Positions 4,098 through 23,147 of a stretch of DNA of 48,494 nucleotides are shown here, piece by piece. Positions within the stretch are counted from its first letter, which is position 1, and every line of letters begins with the position of its first letter. The DNA is from an uncultured Spirochaetaceae bacterium (lineage in GTDB: Bacteria > Spirochaetota > Spirochaetia > Treponematales > Treponemataceae): positions 1 through 48,494 of the forward strand of contig CADBSK010000042.1 in assembly GCA_902797305.1 (NCBI GenBank), read 5' to 3'. The notes below the pieces were generated by a model, which did no database searches, was not told the origin of the DNA, and saw only the letters and a list, made by a program, of their open reading frames with translations. The position numbers were made by a program, and so were the translations under genes.

Positions 4098-4706
4098 CTA
4101 AACCAAATCCCGGATTCTGTACTTTACGCCGATTTTTTCGCAAAGTTTGCGGCATTTTTCCTCATCATCCTTTGTGATTGTGGTAGAAACTGTGGTCATA
4201 GTAACTGAAGGTATGATTTTTGCTGCTTCTTCTGCAAAAAAAATCATTTCAGCATGGGCATTTTTGAATTTTGGGCGGACATTTTTTTCGTAGATCTCCG
4301 GATTGCTGGAGTTCAGGCTTATGCTTATTGCATCAATGAGACCTTTCAGGGAAGGAATGATGTCTTTTTTGTTAACGAGATTTCCAAGGCCGTTTGTATT
4401 GAGGCGGACAGGCTTATTGCATACTGATTTAATAAAGGCTGCGGTCTTTACAAGTACATCCAGGGCTTCTGTAGGCTCTCCGAATCCGCAGAAAACAAAT
4501 TCTGTAAAGGAATCAAGGTCTTTTGTAAGCAGGGCAGCCTTTACATCCTCAAAAGTCGGTTCGTGATCCAGCCATAGAGAATCTTTTGTGTAAAAATCAG
4601 GTTCCTTCTGGCGGATGCAGAAAGTACAGGCGCAGGGGCAGCGGTTTGTAAGGTTTATGTAAAGTCCTGTGTGAACAGGATAAAGTATGTTCATTTCTTT
4701 TTTCAT
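4098..4706 (-). CDS. Small radical SAM protein (TatD-associated type)
   Basis: A radical SAM protein of about 202 residues. The [4Fe-4S] motif is CPCACTFC (C-x3-C-x2-C) in LTNRCPCACTFCIRQKEP, followed by FCGFGEPTE (the GGE-like SAM motif). The overall pattern, including YPVHTGLYINLTNRC and LWLDHEPT, resembles the TatD-linked radical SAM family; no tatD gene is nearby. I chose the ATG at 4706 because AGGAG lies about ten bases before it; a TTG 24 bases upstream has no ribosome site. It is third in the operon RibD-like, NifK-like, radical SAM, some 50 bp after NifK. A role in maturing that NifK/NifD pair or its cofactor is possible but unproven. The substrate is unknown. Confidence 0.82.
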   Translation of the reverse strand: MKKEMNILYPVHTGLYINLTNRCPCACTFCIRQKEPDFYTKDSLWLDHEPTFEDVKAALLTKDLDSFTEFVFCGFGEPTEALDVLVKTAAFIKSVCNKPVRLNTNGLGNLVNKKDIIPSLKGLIDAISISLNSSNPEIYEKNVRPKFKNAHAEMIFFAEEAAKIIPSVTMTTVSTTITKDDEEKCRKLCEKIGVKYRIRDLV

Positions 4707-4756
4707 AAGAGGGATTCTCCTGCAAAACAAGGCTTTCTGTCAATAAAGGGAGTTTG

Positions 4757-6046
4757 TCAGTTGGAAGAATAAATGTCTTCTAAAAGCCTCAGGGCTCCTG
4801 AATACCCTGCTATACCGCTGTTTATAATTAAACGGCTTATAACGGGATACGAAACATTTACATAGCGACCTCCAATTTGCTTTGCTATCTCTTTTTCCCA
4901 GCTGCTTCCAATTACAAGTGGAATACCTTTAAAATCAAATTTTTTGATTTTATTGTGAATTTCGTCGCCGTCTATAGACCACTCTACATTCGCTTCTATT
5001 CCGTAATTCAGATTTCTGAACTCTGCTTCTATTTCTTTTCTGTATTTTTTTGGAGTATCATCTGTAATAAACTGAGTCAGAGGAAAGCTTCCCATGTCGT
5101 TTACAAGAAACTTTGTAATTGCAAGGGCATACTGAGCTTCGGAAACTACTGTAAATCTTTTTCCAAGGAGGTTTATTTCAAGAAATGTATCTGCAAAGCG
5201 CTCAAGATAGTAATAAAAGTCTCTTTCATTCTCTTCTATAACTTTTTCCACAAGGTTTTTGTCTGCCTGACAGAAATCCCCTACTTTTCTAAGAAATTTT
5301 CCGCTCTCACTGGCACCAATTGGAAGAATTGGATAGCGCAATAGCGGGATGGAAAATTCTTTTTCAAGATATTCAGCACTTTCACTTCCTGCCCAAGGCG
5401 AAACAAGGATTGTGTATTCTGCCTGGCGAACTTTTTTTATATTTTCTATTGAGCGACCAGGACCAAAAATCGTGTTTGGAGTAAGGCCAATTGACTGGAC
5501 TAATCTTTCAATCTCCCGAAGATTTCCAAGCCAAAATGGATCTTGCTGTGGAACTCCGGCAAATATATTTACTAGCCCCTTAATTTTTGGAGCCGGAGGA
5601 AGTTTTGTCAGATATTGTTGGAATATTGCACTTAAAATCCAGTCGTGTCCCTGATAGTTGTTTCCCTTAAAGCCTGGAGTTTTTGCCCATACAACATTTT
5701 TGCCTTGTTCTGCAAATTCTTCGGCTACTTCCTCAATGTCATCTCCTATAATTTCTGTTGTACAGCCAGAAAGAATTACAAAAAGCTCTGCGTCCATTAC
5801 CTTAAGAGCGTTTTCAACAGTATTGCGCAGCTTTTTAATGCCGCCGAATACGACTTCTTTCTCTCCCATAAGGGTACAAGGATAGACGTTTGCGGAATAA
5901 TGTCCGCCACTTCCGCTGTTATCGTTTAATTTGCTTGCACAACCGGGCCCTGAGTGCAGAATTGGAACTGCCCCCGGAATTGCTTGAACTGTCTGCATTG
6001 CTGTAAGAGCACATTTGAAGCGCGGCTGATCTATAATATTTAGCAT
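4757..6046 (-). CDS. Nitrogenase-like subunit, NifK type (second copy)
   Basis: A 429-residue member of the nitrogenase component 1 (NifD/NifK/NifE/NifN) superfamily. Three cysteines sit where the NifK P-cluster ligands do: C12 (FKCALTAMQTV), C36 (HSGPGCASKL) and C95 (LSGCTTEIIGDD), plus a further conserved C57 (VYPCT). It lines up nearly residue for residue at its N-terminus with the other NifK-like protein at 16716-18035. It is shorter than true NifK (about 520). It follows the RibD-like gene by 2 bp. Its likely partner, the second NifD-like subunit, is encoded divergently at the end of an ABC operon. It could be half of a second reductase or a NifEN-like scaffold for the other pair. Confidence 0.87.
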   Translation of the reverse strand: MLNIIDQPRFKCALTAMQTVQAIPGAVPILHSGPGCASKLNDNSGSGGHYSANVYPCTLMGEKEVVFGGIKKLRNTVENALKVMDAELFVILSGCTTEIIGDDIEEVAEEFAEQGKNVVWAKTPGFKGNNYQGHDWILSAIFQQYLTKLPPAPKIKGLVNIFAGVPQQDPFWLGNLREIERLVQSIGLTPNTIFGPGRSIENIKKVRQAEYTILVSPWAGSESAEYLEKEFSIPLLRYPILPIGASESGKFLRKVGDFCQADKNLVEKVIEENERDFYYYLERFADTFLEINLLGKRFTVVSEAQYALAITKFLVNDMGSFPLTQFITDDTPKKYRKEIEAEFRNLNYGIEANVEWSIDGDEIHNKIKKFDFKGIPLVIGSSWEKEIAKQIGGRYVNVSYPVISRLIINSGIAGYSGALRLLEDIYSSN

Positions 6047-6048
6047 TT

Positions 6049-6858
6049 TTACTTACCTCCATTAGTTTCATTATCTGCAGCAACAAAATCCTTTGGGCCT
6101 TTTCCGTATTTTTTTATCCATTCTTCCTTTTCCCATATTTTTTTCACTTTATAATGAAGCCATACTGCTCCTGATTTTTTATCTGCACGTACATCAATCA
6201 ATTCAAAAGAAACAGGAATATCTTCACTTAATCCTTCTTTTGCCATAAAAATTTGAGGACTAGTCGTAGAACCGTCTGCTCCAGCCGTAATGATGTAGCT
6301 TACTTCATCAACATATCCTTTACGAAGAAAAGTCCAGTTTAAACTTCCTCCGCCAGCAAGCTGCAATGTTTTAACCCCAAAAAGCCCTGTCATCTTTTCA
6401 AACATTATTTCAAAATCAACATCATCCTTTCCGCAAATTATGTAAGAAATTTTTTTTCGGCGAAGGAAATCTTTGTAAGCATTTGAGGCTTTTTCTGTAA
6501 TTACATCTACAATGTGGGAATGAACGTTAGCATAAAAAATTTCATTTTTCTCAAACCCAAGAATACCCTTACGGTCAAGAACAAAGCTGTAACGTTCTGC
6601 CTTTTCTACGGCAATATAATCGCCTTGAGGAACCTCGACTGCATTTAAGTCCAATTCAGGTTCCCTATGATATGTATAATCATTAAGAGCTGTGTTTGTT
6701 CCACTTAAATTTGCATCTGTTTTCCATACTTCGTTTGTAAATCCTATTTCTTTAAATAAGGGGGCCGCTGCGCTTTCTTCCGGCAGTTTGGTGAATTCTC
6801 CCCATATTTTTCCGTCCAGGCTTGTAAGCATGTGAATGTAAATAAATGGTCTTGCCAT
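6049..6858 (-). CDS. RibD C-terminal-domain (dihydrofolate reductase-like) reductase
   Basis: A 269-residue protein of the RibD C-terminal/pyrimidine reductase fold, which normally uses NADPH to reduce a sugar side chain in riboflavin synthesis. The N-terminal LTSLDGKI and the glycine-rich LQLAGGGSLNWTFL followed by YVDEVSYII are the family hallmarks. The deaminase domain of bifunctional RibD is absent and no other rib genes are near, so riboflavin synthesis is unlikely. It is first in the operon with the second NifK-like subunit, separated from it by 2 bp, which suggests coupled expression. AGGAGG precedes the ATG, and an Rrf2-type operator overlaps the start of the leader. It may feed electrons or process a substrate or product of the NifDK-like enzyme; that is inference. 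Confidence 0.82.
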   Translation of the reverse strand: MARPFIYIHMLTSLDGKIWGEFTKLPEESAAAPLFKEIGFTNEVWKTDANLSGTNTALNDYTYHREPELDLNAVEVPQGDYIAVEKAERYSFVLDRKGILGFEKNEIFYANVHSHIVDVITEKASNAYKDFLRRKKISYIICGKDDVDFEIMFEKMTGLFGVKTLQLAGGGSLNWTFLRKGYVDEVSYIITAGADGSTTSPQIFMAKEGLSEDIPVSFELIDVRADKKSGAVWLHYKVKKIWEKEEWIKKYGKGPKDFVAADNETNGGK

Positions 6859-6872: not shown

Positions 6873-6891
6873 ACCTATCGTTACAGTAGGT
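6873..6891. promoter_or_regulatory. Putative Rrf2-family operator, site B (RibD/NifK operon)
   Basis: A perfect ACCTA-N9-TAGGT inverted repeat lying between the predicted promoter at 6905-6934 and the AGGAGG ribosome site of the RibD-like gene. Its position just after the predicted transcription start suits a repressor. Confidence 0.72.
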
Positions 6892-7063: not shown

Positions 7064-7096
7064 TAAATATTTCAATTAATTTTCATGGGGGTCTTT

Positions 7097-7897
7097 ATGA
7101 AAAAAATTTTATTCTTTTTACTATCTCTTACAGTTGTTGCATCCTCTGCTTTCTGTAAAGAGAAAAAAAATGCCAAAAATGAAGTTGTTCGTATTGCCAT
7201 TGAAGGTGGGTGGAAGCCTTACAACTTTGTAGATGAAAAAGGAAAAATAACAGGCTTTGATGTTGATGTTGTAAATGCAATTGCAGAAAGAATCGGTGGA
7301 TTGACCATTAAATTTGAACCTACTCCATGGGATGGAATGCTGGTTGCACTTTCTGCAGGCCGTTTTGATGCCGTAGCAAATGAAATTAAGAAAAATCCAG
7401 CCCGAGAAAAGCAGTATTTATATGCAAGTCAGCCTTACAACTACGACTATCCTGCTCTGATTTTTAAGAATACTACAAAAATCAAGTCAGCACAGGATCT
7501 TTTTGGTAAAACTGTAATTGTTGGTGGGGGGTCTTCTTATGCAGAATGGGTTGAAAAGTTCAACAAAGAAAACGGTAACAAAATTAACATTGTATATGCC
7601 GGCGACACAGCAACCGCAGCCATTTTTGCAGAAGTACTTTCTGGCCGTGCAGATGTAACAATTGATGGTCCCGTTGCCGCAGGTGTCTTTATCAACGAGC
7701 GTAAGGAACCTTTGTCTTACATTCCTGCAGATCCAGACCTTCTTAATCCTGCATACTTGATTTTTGCAAAAAATAAAAAAGGAGAAAGAATCAGAGCTCT
7801 CTTTGATCAGGGACTAGAAGAAATCCGCGCAGACGGAACCCTTTCTAAACTAGCAATTAAATGGTTTGGTAGCGATACCACAGTTAAAAGCAAATAG
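7097..7897 (+). CDS. Periplasmic substrate-binding protein, SBP_bac_3 family (importer 2)
   Basis: A 266-residue binding protein. The start at 7097 is preferred because GGGGG sits five bases before it; an upstream in-frame ATG at 7085 overlaps that ribosome site. The signal peptide is MKKILFFLLSLTVVASSAFC, then KEKKNAKNEV. Cys at the junction could be lipidated, although AFC is a poor lipobox. GFDVDVVNAIAERIG and SAGRFDAVANEIKKNPAREK match the family 3 pattern. It starts the operon binding protein-permease-ATPase-NifD-like, so a nitrogenase-like subunit is made with this importer. The ligand may therefore be the substrate of the enzyme, but nothing in the sequence names it. Confidence 0.92.
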   Translation: MKKILFFLLSLTVVASSAFCKEKKNAKNEVVRIAIEGGWKPYNFVDEKGKITGFDVDVVNAIAERIGGLTIKFEPTPWDGMLVALSAGRFDAVANEIKKNPAREKQYLYASQPYNYDYPALIFKNTTKIKSAQDLFGKTVIVGGGSSYAEWVEKFNKENGNKINIVYAGDTATAAIFAEVLSGRADVTIDGPVAAGVFINERKEPLSYIPADPDLLNPAYLIFAKNKKGERIRALFDQGLEEIRADGTLSKLAIKWFGSDTTVKSK

Positions 7898-7914
7898 AAG
7901 ATACGAGGAAAGAT

Positions 7915-8631
7915 ATGGAAAAATTGATTAACGACATCGGTTATATATTTTCAACAATTCCTGAGATAGTAACAAAATTACCAATCACTCTTTTTATTGC
8001 CTTTTCAGCTACTTTCAGCGGATTTTTACTGGGAATATTGATTGCCTTAATTCGATTTTTTCATATCAAAGTTCTATCTCAGCTGGCAACGGTTTTTATT
8101 TCCTTTATCCGCGGTACTCCAATGGTAATTCAGCTTTATCTTACCTACTACGGAATACCTCTTTTAATTTCAAGAATTGCTGAATCAACTGGAAATGAAT
8201 TTGATATGAATACCTTGCCAAGTACCCTCTTTGCAATAATTGCATTTGCATTGAATACCGGAGCCTACATGTCAGAGTCTTTCAGAAGTTCCCTGATGGC
8301 TGTAGAAGCCGGACAATTTGAAGCTTGTAAGAGTCTTCATTATTCAACATGGGATTCTTTGCGCACCGTCATTTTGCCCCAGGCCTTTGTCATTGCAATT
8401 CCGACCCTGACAAGCTCCCTTTTAGCTATGATAAAGAATACTTCTCTTGCTTTCTGTATTACGGTTGTAGATATCATGGCTCAAGCAAGAATTGTTGGGT
8501 CCCGCTCATTCCGTTATTTTGAAATTTACATTGCGGTTTCCCTTATTTACTGGCCAATCTGTGCCCTCCTGGAACGACTTTTGCTTTCACTAGAAAAGAA
8601 ACTTTCCAGATTCAGTAAAAAAGCGTTTTAG
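7915..8631 (+). CDS. Polar amino acid ABC transporter permease (importer 2)
   Basis: A 238-residue permease with the motif [20 protein letters not shown] and the EAA loop [20 protein letters not shown] followed by ILPQ. The glycine normally found in the EAA loop is replaced (SLHYS). It is the only permease in this operon, so it probably forms a homodimer. It lies 17 bp after the binding-protein gene and its stop is 11 bp before the ATPase start. Confidence 0.92.
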
Positions 8632-8642
8632 TGAGGCAAAAT

Positions 8643-9392
8643 ATGATAGAAATCAGAAACCTGAAAAAATCCTTTAATCAGAACGAAGTTTTACGAGGAA
8701 TAAACCTTTCAATAAAAGACAACGAGATTGTTTCAATAATCGGTTCCAGCGGAGGCGGAAAATCTACTCTGCTCCGCTGCCTGAATTTTCTTGAACATGC
8801 AGATTCTGGATTTATCAAAATCGGAGAAGTGAGCATTGATTGCTCAAATACAAATAAAAAAGACATTAGAAAAATAATTTCAAAAAGTACTATGGTTTTC
8901 CAGAATTTCAATCTTTTTAAAAACAAAACCGTTCTACAAAACATTACCGAGCCTTTAATCATAAATACTAAGGTTCCAAAGGATCAGGCCAGAGAAATTG
9001 CCCTTAAATATCTTGCAAAGGTGGGACTAGAAAGCAAAAAGGATGAGTATCCGTCAAAACTTTCCGGAGGTCAGCAGCAGAGGGTTGGAATTGCCAGAGC
9101 ACTGGTTCTTAATCCCCAGGTGATTTTATTTGATGAACCCACAAGTGCCCTGGATCCTGAGCTTGTAAGTGATGTCTTAAAGCTTATTAAAGAAGTTGCA
9201 GACGAAAAAAGAACAATGATTATTGTTACTCACGAAATGACCTTTGCCAGAGAAGTTTCTGACAAGGTTGTTTACATGGATAAGGGTGAAATTGTTGAAG
9301 TAGGCAGCCCCGATGAGATTTTTGTAAAACCAAAAGAAGAGAGAACCAGACAGTTCCTTGCAAGATATCTGCAGCCTGAATATATAATCTAA
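8643..9392 (+). CDS. Polar amino acid ABC transporter ATP-binding protein (importer 2)
   Basis: A 249-residue ATPase with Walker [10 protein letters not shown], signature [14 protein letters not shown], Walker [15 protein letters not shown] and [12 protein letters not shown] prefer the ATG at 8643 to an upstream GTG at 8631: GAGG lies six bases before the ATG, and the protein then begins [11 protein letters not shown] as is usual for the family. It is closely similar in motifs to the ATPase of importer 1. The next gene, 20 bp on, encodes the second NifD-like subunit. Confidence 0.93.
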
Positions 9393-9412
9393 CGTTTTTT
9401 ATGGAGAAGAAA

Positions 9413-10864
9413 ATGCCTTTTGATTTATCAAACTCTGAAATTTCCATGAGGGAAAGCCGCTTAAATTCTGTAGTTACCTACAATGGTGACATAAAATCTC
9501 TGATTTCAGATACAAAAAAGTGCTCCGTAAAAAACTGCGAGCGCTGCTTTACACAGAATAATACTTGTCTTTCCATAATGGTAATGGACCAAATAAGCAG
9601 CATAAGAAATATTACTATCGTCTACCACACTCCCGTTGGCTGCGGAGCCTTTATTCCTCGATGGACGGCTCTGTATAATTCTATTTGTGAGCGTACAGGA
9701 AGAAAATGGAATACAAAATACCTTAGCACAAATCTCAATGAAAGCGACACCGTTTTTGGAGCCGCAAATAAGTTGAGAAACACCGTTCAGGAAGCCTGGG
9801 ACCGATATCCTTCTGATGCAATCTTCATCTGTACAGGATGTGTGATAGGCATTATAGGTGAAGACATAGATTCTGTAGCTGAAGAGTTTTCAAAAAAACT
9901 TCCTGTGCCCGTAATTCCTGTCCACTGCGAAGGAATTAAAAGCAAAGTCTGGGCAACAGGCTTTGATATCAGCGATTACATAATTCTCAAGCACATTGTT
10001 AAGCCTCCCAAAGGAAAAAGACCTATAATCAATTTTAAGAATTTTGAAGAAAAAATCAGACCTTATATAACTAGAATATTTAAACGTTTTGAAGTAGAAC
10101 CACTTTTCCTATATGCAAACTCCACAATAGAAGAATTGTCCCATATGAGCGAAAGCCTGGCTACTGTTAGTTCATGCGGAGCCTTGAGTCCCTATCTCGG
10201 AAACGCCCTTGAGGAACTTTACGGCGTTCCTTATGTAAGAACAATCAATGGAAACGGAATGGAAGGCTTTGATACCTGGCTCCGTGACATTGCAAGAATT
10301 CTCCATAAAGAAGAGATTGCTGAGGAAATTATTCGCGAGGAAAGAGAAAAATATCTTCCAAAAATTGAGGAATTTAAAAAACAGTTTGAAGGAAAAACTG
10401 CGGTTGTTGCAGCCGGGCCTGGATTTACTTATGAGGCTGTCAGGGTTCTAAATGAAATTGGAATTAAGGTAATGACAGCCCTTTCATGGCATCACGATTC
10501 AAAATACGATGATCAGGTAATTCCTGAAACCCTTACATATCTTGAAAAATCTCAACCGGATTTAAAAGTTTCTATTATAGATTTGCAGAATCACGAACTT
10601 TTGAATATCATAAACAGGGAAAAGCCTGACCTCTACATAGTCCGCCATCCAGGAACAAGACCATTTGTAACTAAACTTGGGATTCCTGTAGTTCAGGTTA
10701 CAGACGAATATCAGATGTTCGGCTATGAAGGCCTATGTTCTTTTGCCCAGAACATTGCAGACTTATTCAACAACAAAAGTTTTACAGAAGGCTTAAAAAC
10801 CCACTCTTCAGTTCCATATACATCATGGTGGCTCGAACAGCCTGCAAATAAATTCTATTCCTGA
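9413..10864 (+). CDS. Nitrogenase-like subunit, NifD type (second copy)
   Basis: A 483-residue nitrogenase component 1 family protein. The ATG at 9413 has GGAGA six bases upstream and puts the cysteines in register with the other NifD-like protein; an ATG at 9401 lacks a ribosome site. P-cluster-type cysteines are C52 (NNTCLSI), C77 (TPVGCGAF) and C143 (CTGCVIGIIGED). C255 (SSCGALSPYLGNALEE) aligns with the FeMo-cofactor Cys of NifD. The cofactor His is absent: the region reads VQVTDEYQMFGY. Three extra N-terminal cysteines (C37, C42, C45) are shared with the other D subunit. It is the last gene of the importer 2 operon. It may pair with the NifK-like protein at 4757-6046 as a second reductase or as a NifEN-like scaffold. 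Confidence 0.88.
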   Translation: MPFDLSNSEISMRESRLNSVVTYNGDIKSLISDTKKCSVKNCERCFTQNNTCLSIMVMDQISSIRNITIVYHTPVGCGAFIPRWTALYNSICERTGRKWNTKYLSTNLNESDTVFGAANKLRNTVQEAWDRYPSDAIFICTGCVIGIIGEDIDSVAEEFSKKLPVPVIPVHCEGIKSKVWATGFDISDYIILKHIVKPPKGKRPIINFKNFEEKIRPYITRIFKRFEVEPLFLYANSTIEELSHMSESLATVSSCGALSPYLGNALEELYGVPYVRTINGNGMEGFDTWLRDIARILHKEEIAEEIIREEREKYLPKIEEFKKQFEGKTAVVAAGPGFTYEAVRVLNEIGIKVMTALSWHHDSKYDDQVIPETLTYLEKSQPDLKVSIIDLQNHELLNIINREKPDLYIVRHPGTRPFVTKLGIPVVQVTDEYQMFGYEGLCSFAQNIADLFNNKSFTEGLKTHSSVPYTSWWLEQPANKFYS

Positions 10865-11120: not shown

Positions 11121-11615
11121 TTAAAGCATAAATCCTAGAGTATAGCTTGTTACTTTATGATTTTTCAATTTGAAAGATAAATTTAATGGAGCCGGTTCTG
11201 ATTTTAATATTGTATAACTAATAAAGTTCTCGTTTTTCTGCACTTCAACCTCAGGAGTAGTTGTTATAAGTGTAAGTATTTCTTCTTCTCTTTTGCCAAT
11301 AACTTTAATTCCATTTAATGTTATTAATGAATTAGAACATTCTAATTGAAAAAAATGATTATTTTCATCGTAATAAAATACATCATTATAAATAAATTTA
11401 AAATCTTTCCCTACAATTATTATTCCATTATACTCTTCTTTGCAATCAGACTTTATTTGATTAACATTGATTTGACTTTTATATTTTTCAACAACATTCT
11501 TATAATCTAGAAAATTATCAATTATAGATAAATCAAAACTAATTCTCTGATTATTTTTACATCCTAAAGCTAAAAGACTAAACATTATAATTGCAATTAT
11601 AAACCTATTCTTCAT
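11121..11615 (-). CDS. Hypothetical lipoprotein, possible immunity-type protein
   Basis: A 164-residue protein with a lipoprotein signal: MKNRFIIAIIMFSLLALGC, with a good lipobox (LALGC) and then KNNQRISF. The remainder is AT-rich-coded, with no recognisable domain. GGAGG and a further AGGA lie before the ATG. It follows another lipoprotein gene by 3 bp, which in turn follows a truncated Rhs tip. Small secreted or lipidated proteins directly behind Rhs tips are often immunity proteins; that is context only. Confidence 0.65.
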   Translation of the reverse strand: MKNRFIIAIIMFSLLALGCKNNQRISFDLSIIDNFLDYKNVVEKYKSQINVNQIKSDCKEEYNGIIIVGKDFKFIYNDVFYYDENNHFFQLECSNSLITLNGIKVIGKREEEILTLITTTPEVEVQKNENFISYTILKSEPAPLNLSFKLKNHKVTSYTLGFML

Positions 11616-11618
11616 TTC

Positions 11619-12257
11619 CTAATCCTCCACAACATTTACAGTAGACTTTCCACCTGACTTTAATGCTTTATCAGAAATTTCTGCAATTTTATTTATTTGT
11701 AGCTCCTCCAAATTTATCTCTAAAAGCTCACTGGATTGAAAATCATTTTGAAACTTGTAATAAAACTTTCCATCTTTGTAATAAACGATATCAACACTTA
11801 TAGAATCATCGCTAAATTCCGGAAATGTTTTTTCATATTTTTTAACCATATCTGGCAAAGTATAAACTTCTACAACTGGCATACCAACTTCTTTTGTCTT
11901 TCCATTATCCTGCACAAACAAATAGTTTAAATCTGGGTCAGCACAAATTTCTTGAGATTCTCCAGCAAATAACAATTTAGCGTTATTTTTCATACCATCA
12001 ATATACCAAACTTCGCAAATTAAGGTTCTATTTTTCAACCAATAATTACTTTCAAAAACTACTTTCGTATTATCGATATTTGTAAATAGCAATGGCTTTA
12101 TTATTTGACCTTTTATTTCAACGATTTTTTTATTGTTATTCTTTACGACTGTAGCCACGCCTTTATCTGTTTGATTTTTTTCATAATTAAAGACAACTTT
12201 ACCCTGTGTACAAGATGTGAAAAATAACATTAAAATCAACGCAATACTGTATTTCAT
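11619..12257 (-). CDS. Hypothetical lipoprotein behind the Rhs tip
   Basis: About 212 residues. The start at 12257 is chosen because AGGAG sits just before it and because it gives the signal MKYSIALILMLFFTSC with Cys in lipobox position. The mature part has alternating strands with a C-terminal SVDIVYYKDGKFYYKFQNDF segment, and no family I recognise. It starts 5 bp after the stop of the Rhs-tip ORF, so it is probably in the same transcript. A candidate immunity or accessory protein for the Rhs C-terminal domain. Confidence 0.62.
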   Translation of the reverse strand: MKYSIALILMLFFTSCTQGKVVFNYEKNQTDKGVATVVKNNNKKIVEIKGQIIKPLLFTNIDNTKVVFESNYWLKNRTLICEVWYIDGMKNNAKLLFAGESQEICADPDLNYLFVQDNGKTKEVGMPVVEVYTLPDMVKKYEKTFPEFSDDSISVDIVYYKDGKFYYKFQNDFQSSELLEINLEELQINKIAEISDKALKSGGKSTVNVVED

Positions 12258-12261
12258 ATAT

Positions 12262-13102
12262 TTACTCCTGTTTATTTGAATCAACAACAATAACTCTTTG
12301 AACTGCAGATAATTTTACATACATATTATTATCTTGTTCTTTCCAATTATTGTTATAATTTGCTCTAAATTTATTATCATTTTTTGAAGTAGGACCTACT
12401 TTAATCCAACTTTCTCCGTTTTCATCTTTATGAATGTCTCCATTTACATTAACCCAGTGTAATCCAGAATTCCCATCACTTAATGTATAAGGTACCTGTG
12501 CAACAGCATATGAATTTTTATTCGAATCATTCATTTCCAATAATTTATTTCGTCCGGACTGATCTTCAAATCCCGTAGCAGTTAGACTTCGGTTATTAGC
12601 ACAAGCAATGAAATTTAAGCAATCTTTTCCTTCTCCTGTAAAATTTATAACATTCATATTAATCATTGAAGGATCAACTTGTAAAAAGTCTCGCATACCT
12701 CCATTAATAAGATAATTCTCATTTGTAAAAATATTTGCCATGGCAGTTATAGCACAACCATAACTCTTCATTTTATCATTACTATTATTAATACGTTCAT
12801 TTTCCCATGGTCCAGAATTCATTAAGAAAACGGTTTGAATAGGAAGAATTTTATTGCCATCCGTATCCACATAATGTACCGGGTTATTCCCCGCATAAAG
12901 ATAAAGATTCAAATTAACCGAGTTATAAATTCCGCCTTCGCCTTCAGAAGTCTTACTTAAATATTCTCCCACCACCGGGATCCGTACTAATCCACCTGGA
13001 ATACTTCGGGTCCAGGTATCTTGATGCTTGTTCATATGTTTTTCGTTCTTGATTTTTAAGAATTGTATTCCATGTATTATGTAATTCTTCTATATCAATC
13101 AT
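12262..13102 (-). pseudogene. Rhs-type tip with C39-like C-terminal domain, frameshifted and truncated
   Basis: Two frames together give the end of an Rhs/YD-repeat core. The first frame, from an ATG at 13102, reads ...SRYLDPKYSRWISTDP, the classic Rhs junction. The second, from about 12979 down to 12262, continues GEYLSKTSEGEGG, then NLYLYAGNNPVHYVDTDGNK. One extra C in the run at 12977-12982 (GATCCC on the coding strand) separates the frames. After the core comes a 190-residue variable domain with KSYGCAITAMANIFT and SGLHWVNVNGD. These Cys and His motifs suggest a papain/C39-like peptidase fold. The long N-terminal Rhs shell is missing, so this is a displaced tip cassette. A frame could survive if the 258-residue distal part is translated from an ATG at 13035. 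Confidence 0.7.
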
Positions 13103-14027: not shown

Positions 14028-14045
14028 ATTATTATTTCATAAAAA

Positions 14046-14544: not shown

Positions 14545-14568
14545 ACAAAAGACATTAGTAGGAATAAA

Positions 14569-15546: not shown

Positions 15547-15739
15547 TATTCGACATTCTCCAAAAGAAAATCAGGCGAAGAATAGTAATTATAAGTATCA
15601 ACATTTTTTTATTAAGTGATTCTTTCTGTCTATTCTTAATAGTACCACAAGGTCCTGATTGTACAACTGATTCATTATCACCACAAATAACATGAATATT
15701 TGGAAGATGATACTTTCCTCTTTTTTCAGTATACAACAT
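15546..15739 (-). pseudogene. Frameshifted small ORF upstream of the TPR-like lipoprotein
   Basis: The first frame starts at 15739 (MLYTEKRGKYHLPNIHVICG) and runs to a run of seven A on the coding strand at about 15605-15611. There another frame takes over, reading KNVDTYNYYSSPDFLLENVE and ending in TAATG, coupled to the lipoprotein start. The switch at a homopolymer suggests a slippage mutation or a read error. No family recognised. Confidence 0.35.
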
Positions 15740-15774
15740 ATTCTGTTAAAAAATAAATAATTCCGTTCCTGCTC

Positions 15775-16707
15775 CTAATCTATCTGATCAAGTTTCAGGA
15801 TTTTCTTTATGCAGGCAATGTAGTCTCTGGTAATTGAGTCAATTTTTCTTTCTTTTGTAATATAGCCAAGACTAAAGCTGTGAGACCATTCACTGTCTGC
15901 TTTTTTAAGGGGAATTGTTACAAACTCTTCCCCTTCATTATTTTTCTTTTCATAATTCTCTACTGAAACACCGGAAAGAAAAGTAAAACCTTTAAGGTTC
16001 TCTAATAAATTCAATTCTGTAGAACGGTCTGCTACGGTGATAGGCTGATTAAGACCATATTCATCAATTATTGCATCAGAAAAAAAAGATTTTACATCAT
16101 CTGTATCAAAAGTGATAAAGTGATAGGGACGCAAATCTTCTAAAGAAATCCAGTCCTTTTCTGCCAGGGGATGATCTTTATGTACATAGACAAAAGCTCC
16201 GCATTCTGTAAGAGGAGTAAAAACCAGTTTATTTGCAGCGAGTGCTTTTTCTATTTCTTCCTGATTAGTTTCGCTTATGTAAAGAAGACCAATGTGACTT
16301 TTTCCCCCTGCAACATCCTCAATTACATTTAAGGCACGCATTTCCCTAAAAGAAAAATCATACTGACTGCCAGAGTAAGCTTTTACAACATCTATAAAAG
16401 CACGTCGTGCAAATTCGTAGTATAAAGCAGAAACAGAAAATCTTTTCTTTTCGGGAGTAATGTATTTTGCAAGAATTTTTTCGTAAGTCTGAAAGAGAAA
16501 ACGGGCATCTAAGAGAAAATCATTACCTTTTTCTGTAAGACTTGTTCCTCTAGAAGTCCGTCTAAAAATTTCAAATCCCAGCTCTCTTTCCAGATCATGA
16601 ATACTTGCCGTAAGGGATGGCTGAGAAATATATAGTTTTTCTGAAGCCTTGTTAAAGGAGCCGCAGTCAGCGACTCCCAGACAATATCGGATCTGTTGAA
16701 TCGTCAT
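15775..16707 (-). CDS. LysR-family transcriptional regulator in the nitrogenase-like operon
   Basis: A 310-residue LysR regulator. The N-terminal helix-turn-helix is MTIQQIRYCLGVADCGSFNK followed by ASEKLYISQPSLTASIHDLE. The C-terminal effector-binding domain follows. It starts 8 bp after the NifK-like stop, so it is the distal gene of the long operon. LysR regulators with sulfur-related effectors (CysB, and the SalR type tied to methylthio-alkane reductase genes) are precedents. A candidate site is the perfect inverted repeat at 6955-6980 before importer 2. The effector is not visible in the sequence. Confidence 0.9.
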   Translation of the reverse strand: MTIQQIRYCLGVADCGSFNKASEKLYISQPSLTASIHDLERELGFEIFRRTSRGTSLTEKGNDFLLDARFLFQTYEKILAKYITPEKKRFSVSALYYEFARRAFIDVVKAYSGSQYDFSFREMRALNVIEDVAGGKSHIGLLYISETNQEEIEKALAANKLVFTPLTECGAFVYVHKDHPLAEKDWISLEDLRPYHFITFDTDDVKSFFSDAIIDEYGLNQPITVADRSTELNLLENLKGFTFLSGVSVENYEKKNNEGEEFVTIPLKKADSEWSHSFSLGYITKERKIDSITRDYIACIKKILKLDQID

Positions 16708-16715: not shown

Positions 16716-18035
16716 TTAATTAAACCTCTGAACTGCAACGGAATAAATGTCTTCAATAAGTTTAATACCGCCGCGATAGCCTGCGTAAGAAGTATCCATT
16801 ACAACCCTATCCTGGAAAGGCCATGAAATATTCAAAAAGTTTCCCTTAAGTTCATCGGTGAGTTCTTTGTCAAAGTAACTTCCAAGAACTAAAGGATATC
16901 CGTGATAGTCATGGTTACGTATTTCTTCGTGAATTACATAACTGTCTGTTGTAAAGACTGCTTCTGCCTCAATGCCATAGTTAAGTTTTTTAAACTCGTC
17001 TGCAATTAAAGCCTGATATTCTTTTGGTGTATCATCGGTTATAAACTGTTTAGCAGGAAAAAGTCCAAGATCATTTACAAGGAACTTTGTTACAGCCAGA
17101 GCATACTGGGCATCTGCTACCACAGAAAACTGTTTGTTTATTACGCGATTTTCAAGAAAGAGATCTGCATAGCGTTCAATAAGGTAGTAAAAGTATTTTT
17201 CATGCTCCGAAATTACAGCTTCTACCTTATCTGACTGCACGCCAGCTGCTTCTCCAACAGCCCTCAAAAACTTGCTGGTCTCTGTAGCTCCAACAGGTAA
17301 AACAGGATAATGAAGATATGGAGTTCCAAACTTCTTTTCAAGTTTCTGAACGTTCTTTAATCCGACCCAAGGAGAAACCAGAAGGTTCAAACTTGCCTTT
17401 GGAAGAAGGTCTATATTTTTAATTCCTCGGTCATAACCAAAGATTGTATTTGGAGTAAGTCCCAGTTCACGTACAAGATTTTCCAGTTCCCCAAGGTTTC
17501 CAAGCCAGAATAAATCCTGATAAGGAACATCTGCCCAGATGTTTACAAGGCCAGGAATCTTTTCAGTGTCTTTTCCATTAACTCCTTCAACTTTTGGAAG
17601 ATACTGCTCAATGATTGCATCAATCACCTGCTCGTGTCCCTTGTAGTTATTCCCCTTAAATCCTGCAGTGCTTGCATAGATTACAGGCTTAGAAGCATCC
17701 TCAAACTGGCTTACGATTTCACCAGAATCATCTCCTACAATTTCAGGAATACAGCCTGTAAGGACAACATAAAGGTCTGCATCAATTACCTTGAGGGCAT
17801 TTTCTATAGTGCTCTTAAGTTTTTTTGTTCCTCCAAAAACAACATCTTTTTCATTGATGCTGGTACAAGGGAAAATATTTGGAGAAAAATATCCTGAACT
17901 TCCAGTTGTGTCAGAAAGTTTCTGGGCACATCCAGGTCCTGAATGTAAAACCGGTATTGCCCTCGTTATTGCCTGTACTGTCTGCATAGAAGCAAGGGCA
18001 CATTTATATCTTTGTTTATCAAGTAACTTTGCCAT
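16716..18035 (-). CDS. Nitrogenase-like subunit, NifK type (first copy)
   Basis: A 439-residue nitrogenase component 1 protein. Cysteines C12 (YKCALASMQTV), C36 (HSGPGCAQKL) and C95 (LTGCIPEIVGDD) fit the three P-cluster ligands of NifK; C57 (IFPCT) is also shared with the second copy. It lacks the long N-terminal extension of NifK. It starts 24 bp after the NifD-like gene, as expected for a DK pair, with LysR directly after. Motifs such as GFKGNNYKGHE and LTPNTIFG recur in both K copies. It should form an alpha2-beta2 complex with the 18060-19529 product and receive electrons from the NifH-like protein. Confidence 0.9.
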   Translation of the reverse strand: MAKLLDKQRYKCALASMQTVQAITRAIPVLHSGPGCAQKLSDTTGSSGYFSPNIFPCTSINEKDVVFGGTKKLKSTIENALKVIDADLYVVLTGCIPEIVGDDSGEIVSQFEDASKPVIYASTAGFKGNNYKGHEQVIDAIIEQYLPKVEGVNGKDTEKIPGLVNIWADVPYQDLFWLGNLGELENLVRELGLTPNTIFGYDRGIKNIDLLPKASLNLLVSPWVGLKNVQKLEKKFGTPYLHYPVLPVGATETSKFLRAVGEAAGVQSDKVEAVISEHEKYFYYLIERYADLFLENRVINKQFSVVADAQYALAVTKFLVNDLGLFPAKQFITDDTPKEYQALIADEFKKLNYGIEAEAVFTTDSYVIHEEIRNHDYHGYPLVLGSYFDKELTDELKGNFLNISWPFQDRVVMDTSYAGYRGGIKLIEDIYSVAVQRFN

Positions 18036-18059: not shown

Positions 18060-19529
18060 TTATTTATTTGTCTTTTCAAAAAATTCGTCTACGTTCTGCT
18101 GGTACCACCAGTCGGTATACGGAAGCTTTACCCGGCTTGCAAGATTCTGTTCAAAACTTCTGTTGCGAATTGAATCTAGAATTGACTTTGCAAATTCCAG
18201 AGTATGTTTGTAGCCAAAAATCATGTATTCGTCGGCAACATAAACCGCACTGGTTCCATTTTTAATTGCCCATACAGTAGATCCCGGATGACGGGACAGA
18301 TACAAATCTGGCTTAAACTTATGAAGAATGTTCATAACTTCGTAGTTCTGCTGGTCAGAAACGCTTGCCTCAAAGTTAATGTTGTTCTCCAGAAGGTACT
18401 TCATACTTGGAGGTACATCACCGTTTTCATATTTTTTATCGTAGTGCCATGCAAGAGCCCATACTACTTCTATTCCAAGTTCGTTAAGGACGCGGCTTAC
18501 TTCAAATGTGTATCCAGGTCCCATTCCGATTACCGCACGAAGTCCCTTAAGTTCCTTTTTGATTTCTTCAATCTGAGGAAGGTAGATAGCCCGCTGCTCT
18601 GCAATGTATTTTTCTATTTTTTCAGATCTGCCTGTTACGCGGCCAATTTCGCGAAGCCAGCTTTCAAATCCCACTATTCCACACTGGTTAATCGAGCGAA
18701 CATATGGAACACCGTATTTTTCTTCAAGACCGTTTCCAAGATAGTTTCCCAAAGTTCCACAGATACAAGTTGTAGCAAGGGATTCTGAAATATGACTCAG
18801 TTCTTCCACCGTTGAATTACAGTAAAGGAATACAGGATCTAGGTCGAAGTTTTTAAAAATCTCAATAATTTCAGGTCTTGCGCTTTCATAAAAGTTCTTA
18901 AAGTTGATTTTATTTGATTTAATTCCTTCTCTAGGAGGCTGAACAATAGAACTTAAAACTGCATGATCTGCAATGTCAAAGCCGGTTGCCCATATTCTAG
19001 ACTTAAACCCTTCACAATGAACGGCAACAACAGGAACGTCTATTTCTTCCTTTACTTCGTCAACAACGCTATCAATATCTTCTCCAATAATACCTGTTGC
19101 ACATGAAGAAGAAACAAAAATTGCCTTTGGTGAATAGCGACGGTTTACTTCCAGAATGATTTTTCGTAAATCATTTGTAGAACCAAAAATCGTATCCTTT
19201 TCGTTCATGTCTGTTCCAACATAAACGGTGCTGGTTGTAACTCCCCTTTTTTTTGCCATTACCTTGTTAAGGTAGTAGTTTCCTGCCGTAGCAACGGAAC
19301 AACCTGCAGGGCCGTGGTGTATAATTGCCACATCCCTTATTGCCGCAAGCTGACTGAGTCCACAGGAAGAAAGACATGTACTAGACTGACTAAAGCATCT
19401 TGAACACCCTTTTAAGTTTCCGCATTCAGTCTGTTCCGCCAGATCTTTTAAGTTTCCAATGTAGCCAGTAATGGACCCAATTCTGTTTTCGCGGGTAGCT
19501 ACATTTGAAGAATTTGTATTAATTGCCAT
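18060..19529 (-). CDS. Nitrogenase-like subunit, NifD type (first copy)
   Basis: A 489-residue NifD-family catalytic subunit. P-cluster-type cysteines are C52 (SSTCLSS), C77 (HHGPAGC) and C143 (SSSCATGIIGED). C257 (CICGTLGNYLGNGLEEKYG) aligns with the FeMo-cofactor Cys, 12 residues before the EE pair as in NifD. The cofactor His is missing; the equivalent stretch reads VYVADEYMIFGY. An extra N-terminal C36-x5-C42-x2-C45 cluster is shared with the second copy. AGGAG lies five bases before the ATG. This pattern fits nitrogenase-like reductases outside N2 fixation, such as methylthio-alkane reductase, and argues against NifD proper. The substrate is inferred from context to be a sulfur compound. 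Confidence 0.9.
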   Translation of the reverse strand: MAINTNSSNVATRENRIGSITGYIGNLKDLAEQTECGNLKGCSRCFSQSSTCLSSCGLSQLAAIRDVAIIHHGPAGCSVATAGNYYLNKVMAKKRGVTTSTVYVGTDMNEKDTIFGSTNDLRKIILEVNRRYSPKAIFVSSSCATGIIGEDIDSVVDEVKEEIDVPVVAVHCEGFKSRIWATGFDIADHAVLSSIVQPPREGIKSNKINFKNFYESARPEIIEIFKNFDLDPVFLYCNSTVEELSHISESLATTCICGTLGNYLGNGLEEKYGVPYVRSINQCGIVGFESWLREIGRVTGRSEKIEKYIAEQRAIYLPQIEEIKKELKGLRAVIGMGPGYTFEVSRVLNELGIEVVWALAWHYDKKYENGDVPPSMKYLLENNINFEASVSDQQNYEVMNILHKFKPDLYLSRHPGSTVWAIKNGTSAVYVADEYMIFGYKHTLEFAKSILDSIRNRSFEQNLASRVKLPYTDWWYQQNVDEFFEKTNK

Positions 19530-19552: not shown

Positions 19553-19618
19553 GGGGAAAGCCTTCCCCTGGCTCGCACTTCGTTGCTTGCCACCCCTTCG
19601 CCTAAGGGCTAAGCCCTT
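19553..19618 (-). other. Two intercistronic hairpins between cysK-like and nifD-like genes
   Basis: GGGGAA/TTCCCC with a 4-nt loop (19553-19568) and AAGGGCT-A-AGCCCTT (19604-19618, overlapping the upstream stop codon) flank a GC-rich stretch unlike its AT-rich neighbours. Neither has a T-run. Such hairpins can set transcript stability between an abundant upstream product and the DK genes. The stretch may also be a dispersed repeat of the genome. Confidence 0.5.
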
Positions 19619-20633
19619 AAAATCCTGCCTTACTTTCTACTTCAGGACGAATACGCTGCAAGTCTTCGCTTAAATAGCGTTCCCCGTTATCAGGTAAAAG
19701 AGGAACAATGAGTTTTCCCTTATTTTCTTCCCGTAAAGCCTGCTTAATTGCAATTGCAAGAGCAGCCCCACTAGAAGCTCCAATAAAGATTCCTTCATAG
19801 CGAGCAAGAAGATGAATGGCGCGCAAAGTTTCTGCATATGTTACAGTTTCATACTCATCCACATATTTTTCGTTAAAATTGGTTGGAGCCATAGGATTAA
19901 GCCCGTTTTCATCGTGAACTGCATGTATTCCATGGAAGCCGCCATCTTCTACGCCTTTTACAACAGGTTTTTCAACATCTTTAACATCTGGCTGGGCAAT
20001 TACAACCTTAATAGCATTATTTTTTTCTTTTAGAAATTTTCCAACTCCGTGAGTACTTCCACCAGTTCCTACTCCACCGACAAAAATGTCAATTTTGCCA
20101 TCTGTATCTTCCCAAATCTCAGGAGCGGTGTGCTTGTAGTGGGCTCCAGGATTATCAGGATTTGAAAGCTGCCAGGTAGACCATCCACCTTCTGTTGTTT
20201 CAATCATCCATTTATAAACATCTTTAAAAGCTTCAATTCCTTTTTCAAAAACGCCGGCAATAAGTTCTTCCGGAGGATTTACAAGTTCACTTCCATATGC
20301 TTCCATCAACTTTGAACGTTCTATCGAAACTCCATTCTGAACTCCCAGTTTAACCTTATAGCCTTTTGCCGCAGCCACAGAAGCAATTCCAATACCCATG
20401 TTACCGGAAGTAAATTCCACCAAAGTTGTTTTATCTGGACTGATTTCACCTCTCTTTTCTGCCTCTTCAATTATTTCTAGAGCTGCTCTGTCCTTGTGGC
20501 TTCCTGCAGGATTAAAGTATTCCAACTTACCTGCAATACGACCTTTTAAGCCAAGAGCTTTTTCAAGTCTGTGAAATTCTACGATTGGTGTATGTCCAAT
20601 AAGTTCTGTAATTGAATTGTATATATGTCCCAT
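19617..20633 (-). CDS. Cysteine-synthase-like PLP enzyme in the nitrogenase-like operon
   Basis: A 338-residue fold-type II PLP enzyme of the CysK/CBS family, which normally joins sulfide to O-acetylserine. The PLP lysine is K47 in NPAGSHKDRAA (usual SVKDR), the substrate loop is TSGNMGIG (75-82; usual TSGNTG), and the phosphate cup is GVGTGGSTHG near 187-196. The two changed residues near the active site may alter the thiol or acceptor used. It lies between the nifH-like and nifD-like genes, so it probably uses the thiol or sulfide released by the reductase to make cysteine or a related amino acid. CysK also partners the Rrf2 regulator CymR in Firmicutes. AGGAG within a repeated leader drives translation. 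Confidence 0.85.
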   Translation of the reverse strand: MGHIYNSITELIGHTPIVEFHRLEKALGLKGRIAGKLEYFNPAGSHKDRAALEIIEEAEKRGEISPDKTTLVEFTSGNMGIGIASVAAAKGYKVKLGVQNGVSIERSKLMEAYGSELVNPPEELIAGVFEKGIEAFKDVYKWMIETTEGGWSTWQLSNPDNPGAHYKHTAPEIWEDTDGKIDIFVGGVGTGGSTHGVGKFLKEKNNAIKVVIAQPDVKDVEKPVVKGVEDGGFHGIHAVHDENGLNPMAPTNFNEKYVDEYETVTYAETLRAIHLLARYEGIFIGASSGAALAIAIKQALREENKGKLIVPLLPDNGERYLSEDLQRIRPEVESKAGF

Positions 20634-20704: not shown

Positions 20705-21608
<904 letters not shown>

Positions 21609-21714: not shown

Positions 21715-22083
21715 CTATTTGAACAAGTTCTGGATTCTGTTGTATTTCCAGACCTTTGTTACCGCATCATCTATGGAACCCGGAAGTTCCATGCAGGTTA
21801 TTCCCTTTACCACAAGATGCTGATTTGCTCCCGCTCCAATTTTTGCAGCAATTACATATTTGCAATCCGTAAATCTCACTGCACTTTTTTCCATATCAGA
21901 AATCATATGACTTCCGTCATGGCAAACCGGCTCAACCTTTCGTTCTTCAATCAGACTGTAACCTTCTTCATCATCAACAAGATAAATAAAAAACTTATCT
22001 GCCCTGCCGTAATGTCGATTTACTGTCTCACCATCAGAACTGGCAATTGCTATTCTGTACTTATAAGAATCTTCATCAGCCAT
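21715..22083 (-). CDS. NifX/NifB-C-type iron-molybdenum cofactor-binding domain protein
   Basis: A 122-residue protein of the Nitro_FeMo-Co (NifX/NafY/NifB C-terminal) family, which binds and carries nitrogenase cofactor precursors. Motifs are YRIAIASSDGETVNRHYGRA (the conserved HYGRA turn) and CKYVIAAKIGAGANQ. I set the start at 22083, an ATG overlapping the NifB stop by 8 bp (ATGGCTGA); a longer frame reading into nifB is a shadow. In many diazotrophs this domain is fused to NifB; here it is a separate, coupled gene. Confidence 0.88.
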   Translation of the reverse strand: MADEDSYKYRIAIASSDGETVNRHYGRADKFFIYLVDDEEGYSLIEERKVEPVCHDGSHMISDMEKSAVRFTDCKYVIAAKIGAGANQHLVVKGITCMELPGSIDDAVTKVWKYNRIQNLFK

Positions 22084-22948
22084 GAGAAAAATTCTCCTCA
22101 ATTCTAAAGTTTCTTGAATAAAGCAATTGACTAATCTCTTTCTTGCCGGGAATTCCAGCTGCATCTGCACGGCAATGATTACAGTGCAAGAACAAATCAA
22201 TATACTGTCCTGCTTCACGCCTTGCTTCTTCAATCTGCTGACAATCAGGTGCTTTAGCATCTTTTAGCTTGGCTGTAGGAATCAAAGGAATTATGTTATA
22301 CAACTGAGCTCCTGCTTCTGCCACTGCATAAGCAATTTCCTTTATATGATTTCCATTAATCTCCGGAACAAGAACTGTATTAACCTTTACAGTAATTCCT
22401 GCATCAGCTATCTTTTTAATTCCTGCTAACTGATTTTTGATTAGAATTTTTGCTCCTTCCACTCCTTCAATCTTTTTTCCGTGATAAATGATGTAGTCAT
22501 TCAATTTGGCTTCAATTTCCGGATCAATCGCATTTACAGTTACAGTAAGACTATCAATTCCGGCTGTAATAATTTCTTCTGCTCTTTCATCAAGCAAAAG
22601 CCCATTTGTACTCATACATTTAATCAGCTGCGGAAATTCTTTCTCAATCAACTTAAAGGTCTTAAAAGCATTATCGCTTGCAAGAGTGTCTCCCGGTCCT
22701 GCAATCCCTGCAACTTTAATCTCAGGGCTGATTGCAAGAGCCTTTTTTAGAATTTCAACTGACTCCTCAGGTTTAAGAACTTTAGAAGTAACTCCTGGTC
22801 TATTTTCTGTTAAATTAATTGAACGCTCACAAAAACGGCATGCCAGGTTACAGCCAGGACATACAGGAAGATGAATGCGACCTGCATCAGCTTTATGACC
22901 GCCAAAACATGGATGATTATTTTCTAATTCATTAAAACTTTTAGGCAC
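22076..22948 (-). CDS. NifB-like radical SAM cofactor-biosynthesis protein
   Basis: A 290-residue NifB-family radical SAM enzyme. NifB fuses two [4Fe-4S] clusters with an inserted carbide and sulfur to make NifB-co, the core of nitrogenase cofactors. It carries HPCFGGHKADAGRIHLPVCP, the C33-x3-C37-x2-C40 SAM motif (CNLACRFC), and NRPGVTSKVLKPEE. A C-terminal HCNHCRADAAGIPG matches the NifB CxxCRADAxG motif. The start is GTG with GAGGAGGAAG upstream. Its presence implies that at least one D/K pair carries a large NifB-co-derived cluster, not just [4Fe-4S]. It is the first enzyme gene after the Cys-codon leader. Confidence 0.93.
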   Translation of the reverse strand: MPKSFNELENNHPCFGGHKADAGRIHLPVCPGCNLACRFCERSINLTENRPGVTSKVLKPEESVEILKKALAISPEIKVAGIAGPGDTLASDNAFKTFKLIEKEFPQLIKCMSTNGLLLDERAEEIITAGIDSLTVTVNAIDPEIEAKLNDYIIYHGKKIEGVEGAKILIKNQLAGIKKIADAGITVKVNTVLVPEINGNHIKEIAYAVAEAGAQLYNIIPLIPTAKLKDAKAPDCQQIEEARREAGQYIDLFLHCNHCRADAAGIPGKKEISQLLYSRNFRIEENFSHG

Positions 22949-23069
22949 ACCTTCCTCCTCTAGAAATGAGCATAGTTTCCCCAGCTAAATCTTTTTAAAA
23001 GATTCTCTTATTTAGTGAAAAATTAAATCTATATTGAATTGATATTAGACGGCCTGGTAAATCCAGACT

Positions 23070-23147
23070 TTATAAGAATTGACGGCAGCAGCACATGACG
23101 CCGTTTCTATAGTTTTCGCGCACAAGTTTTTCAAAGTATGCTATCAT
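23070..23147 (-). CDS. Leader peptide with Cys-Cys-Cys run (25 aa)
   Basis: A short ORF with AGGAGG five bases before the ATG at 23147 (a tandem ATG lies at 23150). It starts MIAYFEKLVRENYRNG, then contains Met-Cys-Cys-Cys-Arg (three consecutive TGC codons, 23085-23093) and ends four codons later. It lies between a strong promoter and the nifB-like gene, about 120 bp before its start. Runs of regulatory codons in a short leader suggest sensing of charged tRNA-Cys by ribosome stalling. I see no clean terminator between leader and nifB, so control may act through an RNA fold near the nifB start. Alternatively it is a short thiol- or metal-binding peptide. Confidence 0.7.
   Translation of the reverse strand: MIAYFEKLVRENYRNGVMCCCRQFL

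Follow-up and report, generated by a model that had tools for sequence, protein, structure and literature searches.

Nitrogenase-like D/K pairs beside a single NifH and NifB in a rumen-type Treponema: predicted C-S bond-cutting modules and a palindrome common to cysK

We analysed the 48,494 bp of contig CADBSK010000042.1 (assembly GCA_902797305.1), hereafter the window, which is one contig of a rumen-type Treponema draft genome (87% complete). The window carries two pairs of genes for nitrogenase-like D and K subunits (D1/K1 and D2/K2), together with genes for NifH, NifB, a NifX-like protein, ABC importers and regulators; a third pair (D3/K3) lies on contig C83 of the same genome. D1K1 and D2K2 are probably enzymes that cut C-S bonds on a carbide iron-sulfur cofactor, with imported and likely amino-acid-type compounds as substrates, and their genes have a palindrome in common with cysK. 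An initial annotation had proposed a role in sulfur rather than nitrogen metabolism. This proposal is supported: D1 and D2 are sister to the D subunit of methylthio-alkane reductase (Mar), they keep the cofactor ligands of MarD and have lost residues linked to N2 reduction, and the palindrome also precedes cysK.

Phylogeny and active-site residues of the D and K subunits

Four open reading frames (ORFs) of the window score 227-240 bits against PF00148 (cut-off 28.6) and the NifH gene (20705-21556, minus strand) scores 460 bits against TIGR01287 (cut-off 394), so chance matches are not an issue. D1 (9401-10864, plus) and D2 (18060-19529, minus) are predicted Mar-type catalytic subunits; K1 (4757-6046, minus) and K2 (16716-18035, minus) are their likely partners. 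For both K proteins the best PDB match is MarK (9d9u_C), with an E-value of 8.7e-98 for K1 (next match 5.7e-22) and 1.8e-109 for K2 (next match 2e-25).

In a careful tree of 34 D rows, D1 and D2 form one clade (support 100/99) that is sister to the Mar clade (100/99) and not inside it, the two being joined at 99/95. The tree (80%-identity representatives; a quick tree contained 37 of 145 D sequences) was built without L153, which has two long branches, and without the duplicate row L012_14499; its K proteins were limited to eight rows that act as the outgroup, and Vnf, Anf, Bch, Cfb and Nfa are not represented. D1 and D2 lie outside NifD and NifE; a position within the NifDK or NifEN clades, named beforehand as the outcome that speaks against a sulfur role, did not occur. 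Four Treponema D proteins group with MarD itself, in a supported Mar branch apart from D1/D2, and the Isr-like proteins of the genus, which resemble the sulfonate reductase IsrBHDK, occupy a branch separate from D1/D2.

The cofactor ligands Cys270 and His429 and the adjoining Arg428 (MarD numbering) are kept in all rows of D1 (9/9), D2 (88/88) and the Mar family (11/11), and Cys270 and Arg428-His429 in 240/240 D homologues. The Mar active-site residues Trp195, Phe199 and His375 are likewise conserved in D1/D2, with His375 replaced by Asn in one of the 240 homologues. All three P-cluster cysteines, placed by alignment with NifD and NifK, are retained in D1, D2 and D3 and in K1, K2 and K3, as is the equivalent of Cys275 in the three D proteins. 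Absent are Gln191, His195 and His442 of NifD, whose positions are taken by Trp, Phe and Thr/Ala in D1/D2 and by Cys, Phe and Leu in D3.

D1/D2 share 35% identity with MarD. D2 is 85-93% identical to the homologues listed, the named ones belonging to Butyrivibrio, Ruminococcus and Lachnospira; identity of this order with members of another phylum suggests recent exchange between rumen bacteria. The clade occurs in many rumen and gut records of Treponema, Butyrivibrio, Ruminococcus and Fibrobacter.

One NifH and one NifB for several D/K pairs

The window NifH is the only one in the assembly, and none of the six PF00148 genes of the assembly is a NifE or NifN or groups with Nif in the tree. The initial annotation had described a two-part system; this is too low a count, the genome having three modules. 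D3/K3 is accompanied by an importer of sulfonate type (SsuA family at 66 bits, below the cut-off of 163) and by genes for a NifX-like protein, a PatB-type C-S lyase (432 bits, above the cut-off of 340) and a Cys/Met PLP enzyme; neither NifH nor NifB is found beside the pair on the C83 stretch examined. In two relatives (G004 and G024) all three modules and a NifB-NifX-NifH set fall within approximately 35-41 kb of one contig. In the D3 family His423 is invariant and lies two columns from the position of NifD His442.

To place these counts in the genus we used a sample of 146 genomes, of which 64 match D1; 23 of the 64 are at least 90% complete. Fourteen of the 23 have at least four PF00148 genes; one of them, G121, carries a nif-type cluster in addition. 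Each of the other 13 multi-pair genomes has a single NifH that passes the NCBIfam cut-off and a single NifB match; three of these 13 (G048, G066 and G090) have a second, weaker NifH-like match of 336-345 bits. A further six, all more than 90% complete (G009, G015, G052, G075, G102 and G135), possess a single pair with one NifH and one NifB, so a scaffold in the form of a second pair is dispensable. That leaves three genomes: G017, without any PF00148 gene at 1e-20, and G020 and G038, whose only pair is Isr-like. NifH and NifB are thus likely to be shared parts that serve exchangeable catalytic modules.

The NifB gene (22076-22948, minus) encodes a protein without a NifX domain (TIGR01290, 251 bits, below the cut-off of 344; PDB 7bi7, E 3.5e-84) that keeps the three cysteines of the SAM cluster and the equivalents of Cys30, Cys129 and His43. 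The separate NifX-like protein is encoded at 21715-22083 (minus; PF02579, 64.7 bits), a start we infer within an ORF reaching to 22260, orthologues being 125-126 aa long.

A stretch of the Treponema saccharophilum plasmid pTS2 (382 kb) carries two D/K pairs, which flank an ABC importer, and a single NifB-NifX-NifH set. This sulfur island (L145) adjoins a type I-C CRISPR system, and because it is plasmid-borne with an IS30 transposase gene inside, it may spread horizontally. In two other Treponema relatives (G121 and G115; L148 and L157) nif-type clusters with NifD- and NifE-like genes occur besides other PF00148 genes.

The genes of the window form two units. One runs leftward from 23679 to 15775: an Rrf2-family regulator (23254-23679, minus; TIGR00738, 98.9 bits, cut-off 73.3), NifB, the NifX-like gene, NifH, a divergent CysK-like PLP enzyme (19617-20633, minus; PF00291, 202 bits; TIGR01136, 271.8 bits, below the cut-off of 344), D2, K2 and, 8 bp downstream of K2, a LysR-family regulator (15775-16707, minus) that occupies the same position in G004, G024, G063, G104 and G112. 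The second unit, module 1, is divergent. Leftward from 6858 lie a RibD_C/DHFR-fold reductase (6049-6858, minus; a weak profile match of 32.8 bits, cut-off 24.1), K1 and a small radical SAM protein (4098-4730, minus; TIGR04100/TIGR04038-like, TIGR04100 being nearest at 240 bits, below the cut-off of 262), while rightward from 7085 lie importer B (7085-9392, plus; substrate-binding protein 7085-7897, permease 7915-8631, ATPase 8631-9392) and D1. D1 and K1, one likely enzyme, are therefore encoded on opposite strands, a layout present in 7/7 genomes with a D1-type gene (the window and L063-L068). The RibD-type gene is present in six of these and absent from Treponema sp. JC4; the homologues listed for it come from Treponema and clostridia and are reductases of the DHFR/RibD family, and given this absence and the weakness of its PDB matches we assign it no role.

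Importer A (882-3921, minus) comprises an ATPase (882-1664), two permeases (1692-2411 and 2402-3085) and a family 3 substrate-binding protein (3109-3921). Both importers are cystine-type by the best matches of their ATPases and substrate-binding proteins, scoring 312 (A) and 334 bits (B) against TcyN (cut-off 406) and 92.6 and 131 bits against PRK11260 (cut-off 312). In G004, G063, G112 and G104 an importer like A adjoins LysR-K2-D2-CysK, and this synteny assigns importer A to the D2/K2 module; in the relatives mapped, importers are conserved beside D1 and near D2. Every gene named in the initial annotation (NifH, NifB, NifX, two D/K pairs, CysK-like, RibD-type, radical SAM, importers and regulators) is present, with the Rrf2 gene and importer A lying outside the interval 4098..23147 to which the cluster had been assigned.

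A palindrome common to the modules and cysteine genes

An alignment of module 1 promoters revealed the palindrome ACCTA-N9-TAGGT, a predicted operator. The window contains four exact sites and two with one mismatch (0.93 expected; 0/100 shuffles). One exact site (3975-3993) lies 54 bp upstream of importer A, and another (6873-6891) in the divergent promoter of module 1, between the K1 and importer B sides. Two sites precede NifB (23165-23183, one mismatch; 23213-23231, exact) and two precede the Rrf2 gene itself (23690-23708, one mismatch; 23732-23750, exact). Outside the window the assembly has three further exact sites, seven in all, which precede NifX-D3-K3, a true cysK (456 bits, cut-off 351) and an operon for an SsuA-like importer and a PorCDAB-type oxidoreductase. 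In addition, metY (647 bits, cut-off 495) is preceded by two one-mismatch sites. Because the palindrome is common to the cluster, cysK and, with a mismatch, metY, the link to sulfur has evidence beyond gene neighbourhood.

In L178:2675-9405 (contig C83 of G000) the exact site is followed by genes for this SsuA-like importer, an amidohydrolase, the PorCDAB-type oxidoreductase, a PaaK-like ligase and MalY-like and CysK proteins, possibly another organosulfur pathway with a ferredoxin source.

Relatives were examined in 32 stretches (552 kb) picked around D, H or B genes, with other spacings and permuted half-sites as the control. These stretches hold 67 exact sites, 66 of them intergenic; any other spacing from 3 to 15 gave 0-2 sites, and any of 29 permuted half-sites at most two. 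The count of 67 includes one site twice (L150:1366 and L055:17366) and two near-identical stretches (L147 and L149), of which the contrast between spacings is independent. Exact and control sites in six near-complete genomes number 11/4 (G077), 9/0 (G104), 3/6 (G112), 10/2 (G015), 5/2 (G018) and 0/2 (G021), and exact sites fall within the nitrogenase-like stretch in 8/11, 7/9, 3/3 and 5/10 cases in G077, G104, G112 and G015 (99% complete). G018, which has no D1 match, has two of its five sites before cysK (453 bits, cut-off 351) and two between a MetQ/NlpA-type lipoprotein and an M20 peptidase; G021, also without a D1 match, has no exact palindrome in its genome. Clostridial loci mostly lack the palindrome.

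The Rrf2 protein would read the palindrome when cysteine is plentiful. Its nearest named equivalog is CymR (95.5 bits). CymR acts in complex with CysK, according to the available text of PMC2869319, and a CysK-like gene lies in the Rrf2 operon; by analogy, a CysK-linked sensor such as that of CymR is plausible. The Bacillus and Staphylococcus system described there is alike in its Rrf2 family and in the adjoining CysK-like gene, and its regulon includes cysteine genes, as that of the window protein may. It differs in that the window protein falls below the CymR cut-off of 195.

Several observations weigh against the reading of D1K1 and D2K2 as C-S bond cutters under a cysteine-type regulator. 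MarD Cys73 is replaced by Asp/Ser and His194 by Val/Ile in D1/D2, for which reason the Mar reaction should not be assumed and the substrate probably differs from that of Mar. The Arg428-His429 loop, a proposed hallmark of Mar, is lacking in the D3 clade (0/27 rows). The assembly, being 87% complete, may have missed a second NifH. NifB has no third K1-cluster cysteine at the usual place (MaNifB Cys63), an absence found in 43/51 NifB-like rows scored (present in 8/51); this was established with a motif test on 55 rows including the MtNifB reference, four of which did not fit the motif, in place of a column test, the K1-cluster cysteines of true NifB proteins being shifted by two residues. Such a NifB may use another ligand or a different cluster fusion. 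The importer, CymR and CysK-like assignments all fall below curated cut-offs. As to the palindrome, the cysK site is part of a divergent promoter that another gene shares; the module 1 site is exact in only 4/7 D1 genomes (the window, L063, L067 and L068), L064-L066 having a half-site; and in the window no palindrome stands directly ahead of NifH, the CysK-like gene or D2. Sites with up to one mismatch are not enriched genome-wide (47, compared with 117 for a reversed control), so our argument draws on exact sites and on pairs of sites close to genes. From the genes, the conserved ligand residues, the tree, the palindrome and the counts of NifH and NifB we infer the cofactor, the reaction, the substrates and the sharing of NifH and NifB.

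If D1K1 and D2K2 are C-S bond cutters, low cysteine would release the Rrf2 repressor, and sulfur amino acids or compounds like them would enter through the importers. An [Fe8S9C] precursor made by NifB would be placed in each D subunit between the Cys (MarD 270) and the His (MarD 429), and the single NifH would feed electrons with ATP through the P-cluster. The D/K pair could then cut the C-S bond, and the CysK-like enzyme, or the putative regulon members cysK and metY, could couple the thiol or sulfide released to an O-acetylated amino acid, giving cysteine or methionine.

More tentatively, we entertain the possibility of a plug-in platform for sulfur scavenging, in which one ATP-driven NifH and one cofactor-making NifB/NifX would power up to three or more exchangeable D/K cores. 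Every core would come with an importer and a thiol-fixing enzyme of its own, and a single cysteine-type Rrf2 repressor would control them all. On this view D1K1 and D2K2 would be new enzymes for the reductive cleavage of sulfur amino acids, and the D3 clade would bind the same cofactor through a ligand, the invariant His423, employed by no known nitrogenase relative. If D1K1 and D2K2 do cut C-S bonds, anaerobes could free sulfur from stable C-S bonds and the nitrogenase chassis would be a modular C-S reductase, offering enzymology a target with altered pocket residues and an unaltered cofactor site. There would be a bearing on the release of sulfide, thiols and possibly hydrocarbons in the rumen. 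For cultured species, the palindrome offers a direct way to test the sulfur role.

Alternative explanations, known systems and neighbouring genes

It is conceivable, though unlikely, that D1/D2 are plain Mar enzymes for volatile thioethers (dimethyl sulfide, 2-methylthioethanol), the amino-acid importers serving something else. The full set of cofactor ligands and the conserved Trp195, Phe199 and His375 would fit, but the sister position and the existence of a separate Treponema branch inside Mar do not, nor do the changes at Cys73 and His194 (the latter is replaced in that Treponema branch too). Importers conserved with D1 and D2 are also unaccounted for, since volatile thioethers should need none. 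Release of sulfite by an IsrBHDK-like sulfonate reductase merits very little credence. In its favour, the available text of PMC11423573 reports Isr, which uses NifH/D/K-like proteins, in spirochaetes, and D3/K3 has a sulfonate-type importer, albeit below cut-off. The same text gives IsrD one P-cluster cysteine and no Cys275, whereas D1, D2 and D3 keep all of these, and the Isr-like proteins of the genus branch separately. Sulfite reductase, absent from the assembly, occurs in 5/5 genomes of the genus with an Isr-like cluster (three assigned from residues, G071 and G143 from identity only) as against 1/59 other D1-matching genomes (hypergeometric 8e-7), and adjoins the cluster in G020 and G038. 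It is also found in only 6/82 genomes without a D1 match, so the pattern points mainly to a product different from that of Isr (thiol or sulfide) and not to dependence; being rare in the sample (12/146), its absence is a weak argument by itself and a further caution for the C-S bond-cutting reading.

One D/K pair might instead be a scaffold on which the cofactor of another matures, as NifEN does for NifDK. Several pairs with one NifB and NifX-like proteins, one of them beside D3/K3, do resemble nif plus NifEN; the six single-pair genomes, the Mar active-site ligands kept by both D1 and D2, and the presence of an importer in each module make this improbable. Scarcely any probability attaches to a group IV Nfa-type nitrogenase, fixing N2 without NifEN as reported for Endomicrobium proavitum, with the sulfur genes as mere neighbours, a view judged here without NfaD sequences in the tree. 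The available text of PMC9147875 credits group IV NfaDK with N2 fixation in E. proavitum and describes one NifH with several NflDK in Heliophilum fasciatum, and the window NifH passes the nifH cut-off. Against these stand the replaced NifD residues, the lack of any Nif-grouping PF00148 gene or NifE/NifN in the assembly, and the operator common to cysK and, with a mismatch, metY.

In the accessible parts of the open-licence PMC literature, only Mar and Isr have been demonstrated as nitrogenase-like enzymes for sulfur. MarBHDK of Rhodospirillum rubrum (PMC12552129, as far as its available text describes it; PDB 9fmg, 9d9u) provides the best D/K matches, has NifB and NifH homologues, and shares the P-cluster cysteines, Cys270, Arg428-His429, Trp195, Phe199 and His375. 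Unlike it, the present system forms a sister clade with two replaced pocket residues, has D1/K1 on opposite strands and combines several pairs per NifH/NifB with amino-acid-type importers, Rrf2 and LysR regulators and the palindrome. Because it lies outside the Mar clade and differs in the two pocket residues, we do not file it as Mar; the initial annotation's view that the cluster is unlike a simple marBHDK set holds as well. IsrBHDK of Rhodobacter capsulatus is, in the available text of PMC11423573, similarly a nitrogenase-like sulfur-assimilation enzyme beside an importer; it differs in the missing Cys275 and two P-cluster cysteines of IsrD, in its release of sulfite and in a B protein that resembles NifB only in the radical SAM motif.

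NflDK1-5 of Heliophilum fasciatum likewise combine several D/K pairs with a single nifB, nifH and nifX, and cross-use of one NifH by several pairs was suggested; one pair is predicted to fix N2, and importer modules and an operator are not described in the available text (PMC9147875). Beyond Heliophilum, the maps of the window's relatives add modules that bring their own importers. Nitrogenase-like (NFL) proteins bearing Cys275 were associated with cysteine synthase in 2012, with a sulfur role suggested (PMC3464626), and a nifDK-cysteine synthase operon was reported from a termite spirochaete in 2026 (PMC13067680); the available texts of these two describe neither the His/Arg ligand nor a regulon or a one-NifH count. 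As far as searches of the open-licence PMC literature tell, new features are the Mar-type ligand set in a distinct clade, the D1/K1 split, importer modules with one NifH/NifB, and a palindrome joining modules to cysteine genes.

Isr-like HDK clusters are present in the Treponema stretches L147, L149 and L146, with sulfite reductase beside the cluster in L147 and L149, where the palindrome precedes a Cys/Met PLP gene between the two.

No RNA families (Rfam, gathering threshold) or tRNA genes (ARAGORN) were found in the window. Upstream of Rrf2 on the same strand (23776-28488) are genes for an MMPL-family transporter, a desulfoferrodoxin and a phosphopantetheinyl-transferase-like protein, with no palindrome found ahead of them. 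The stretch between D1 and LysR (11121-15546) is low in GC (30% over 12001-16000) and contains a PDDEXK_2 transposase-like gene besides genes for hypothetical proteins; D1 and LysR adjoin in G024, and the stretch accordingly looks like an insertion. Within it, the protein encoded at 12262-13035 has no Pfam match and carries YNSVNLNLYLYAGNNPVHYVDTDGN, which we take to be an RHS-like core motif, at the end of the core; two small lipoprotein-like genes follow, and the region looks like the end of an Rhs-type element.

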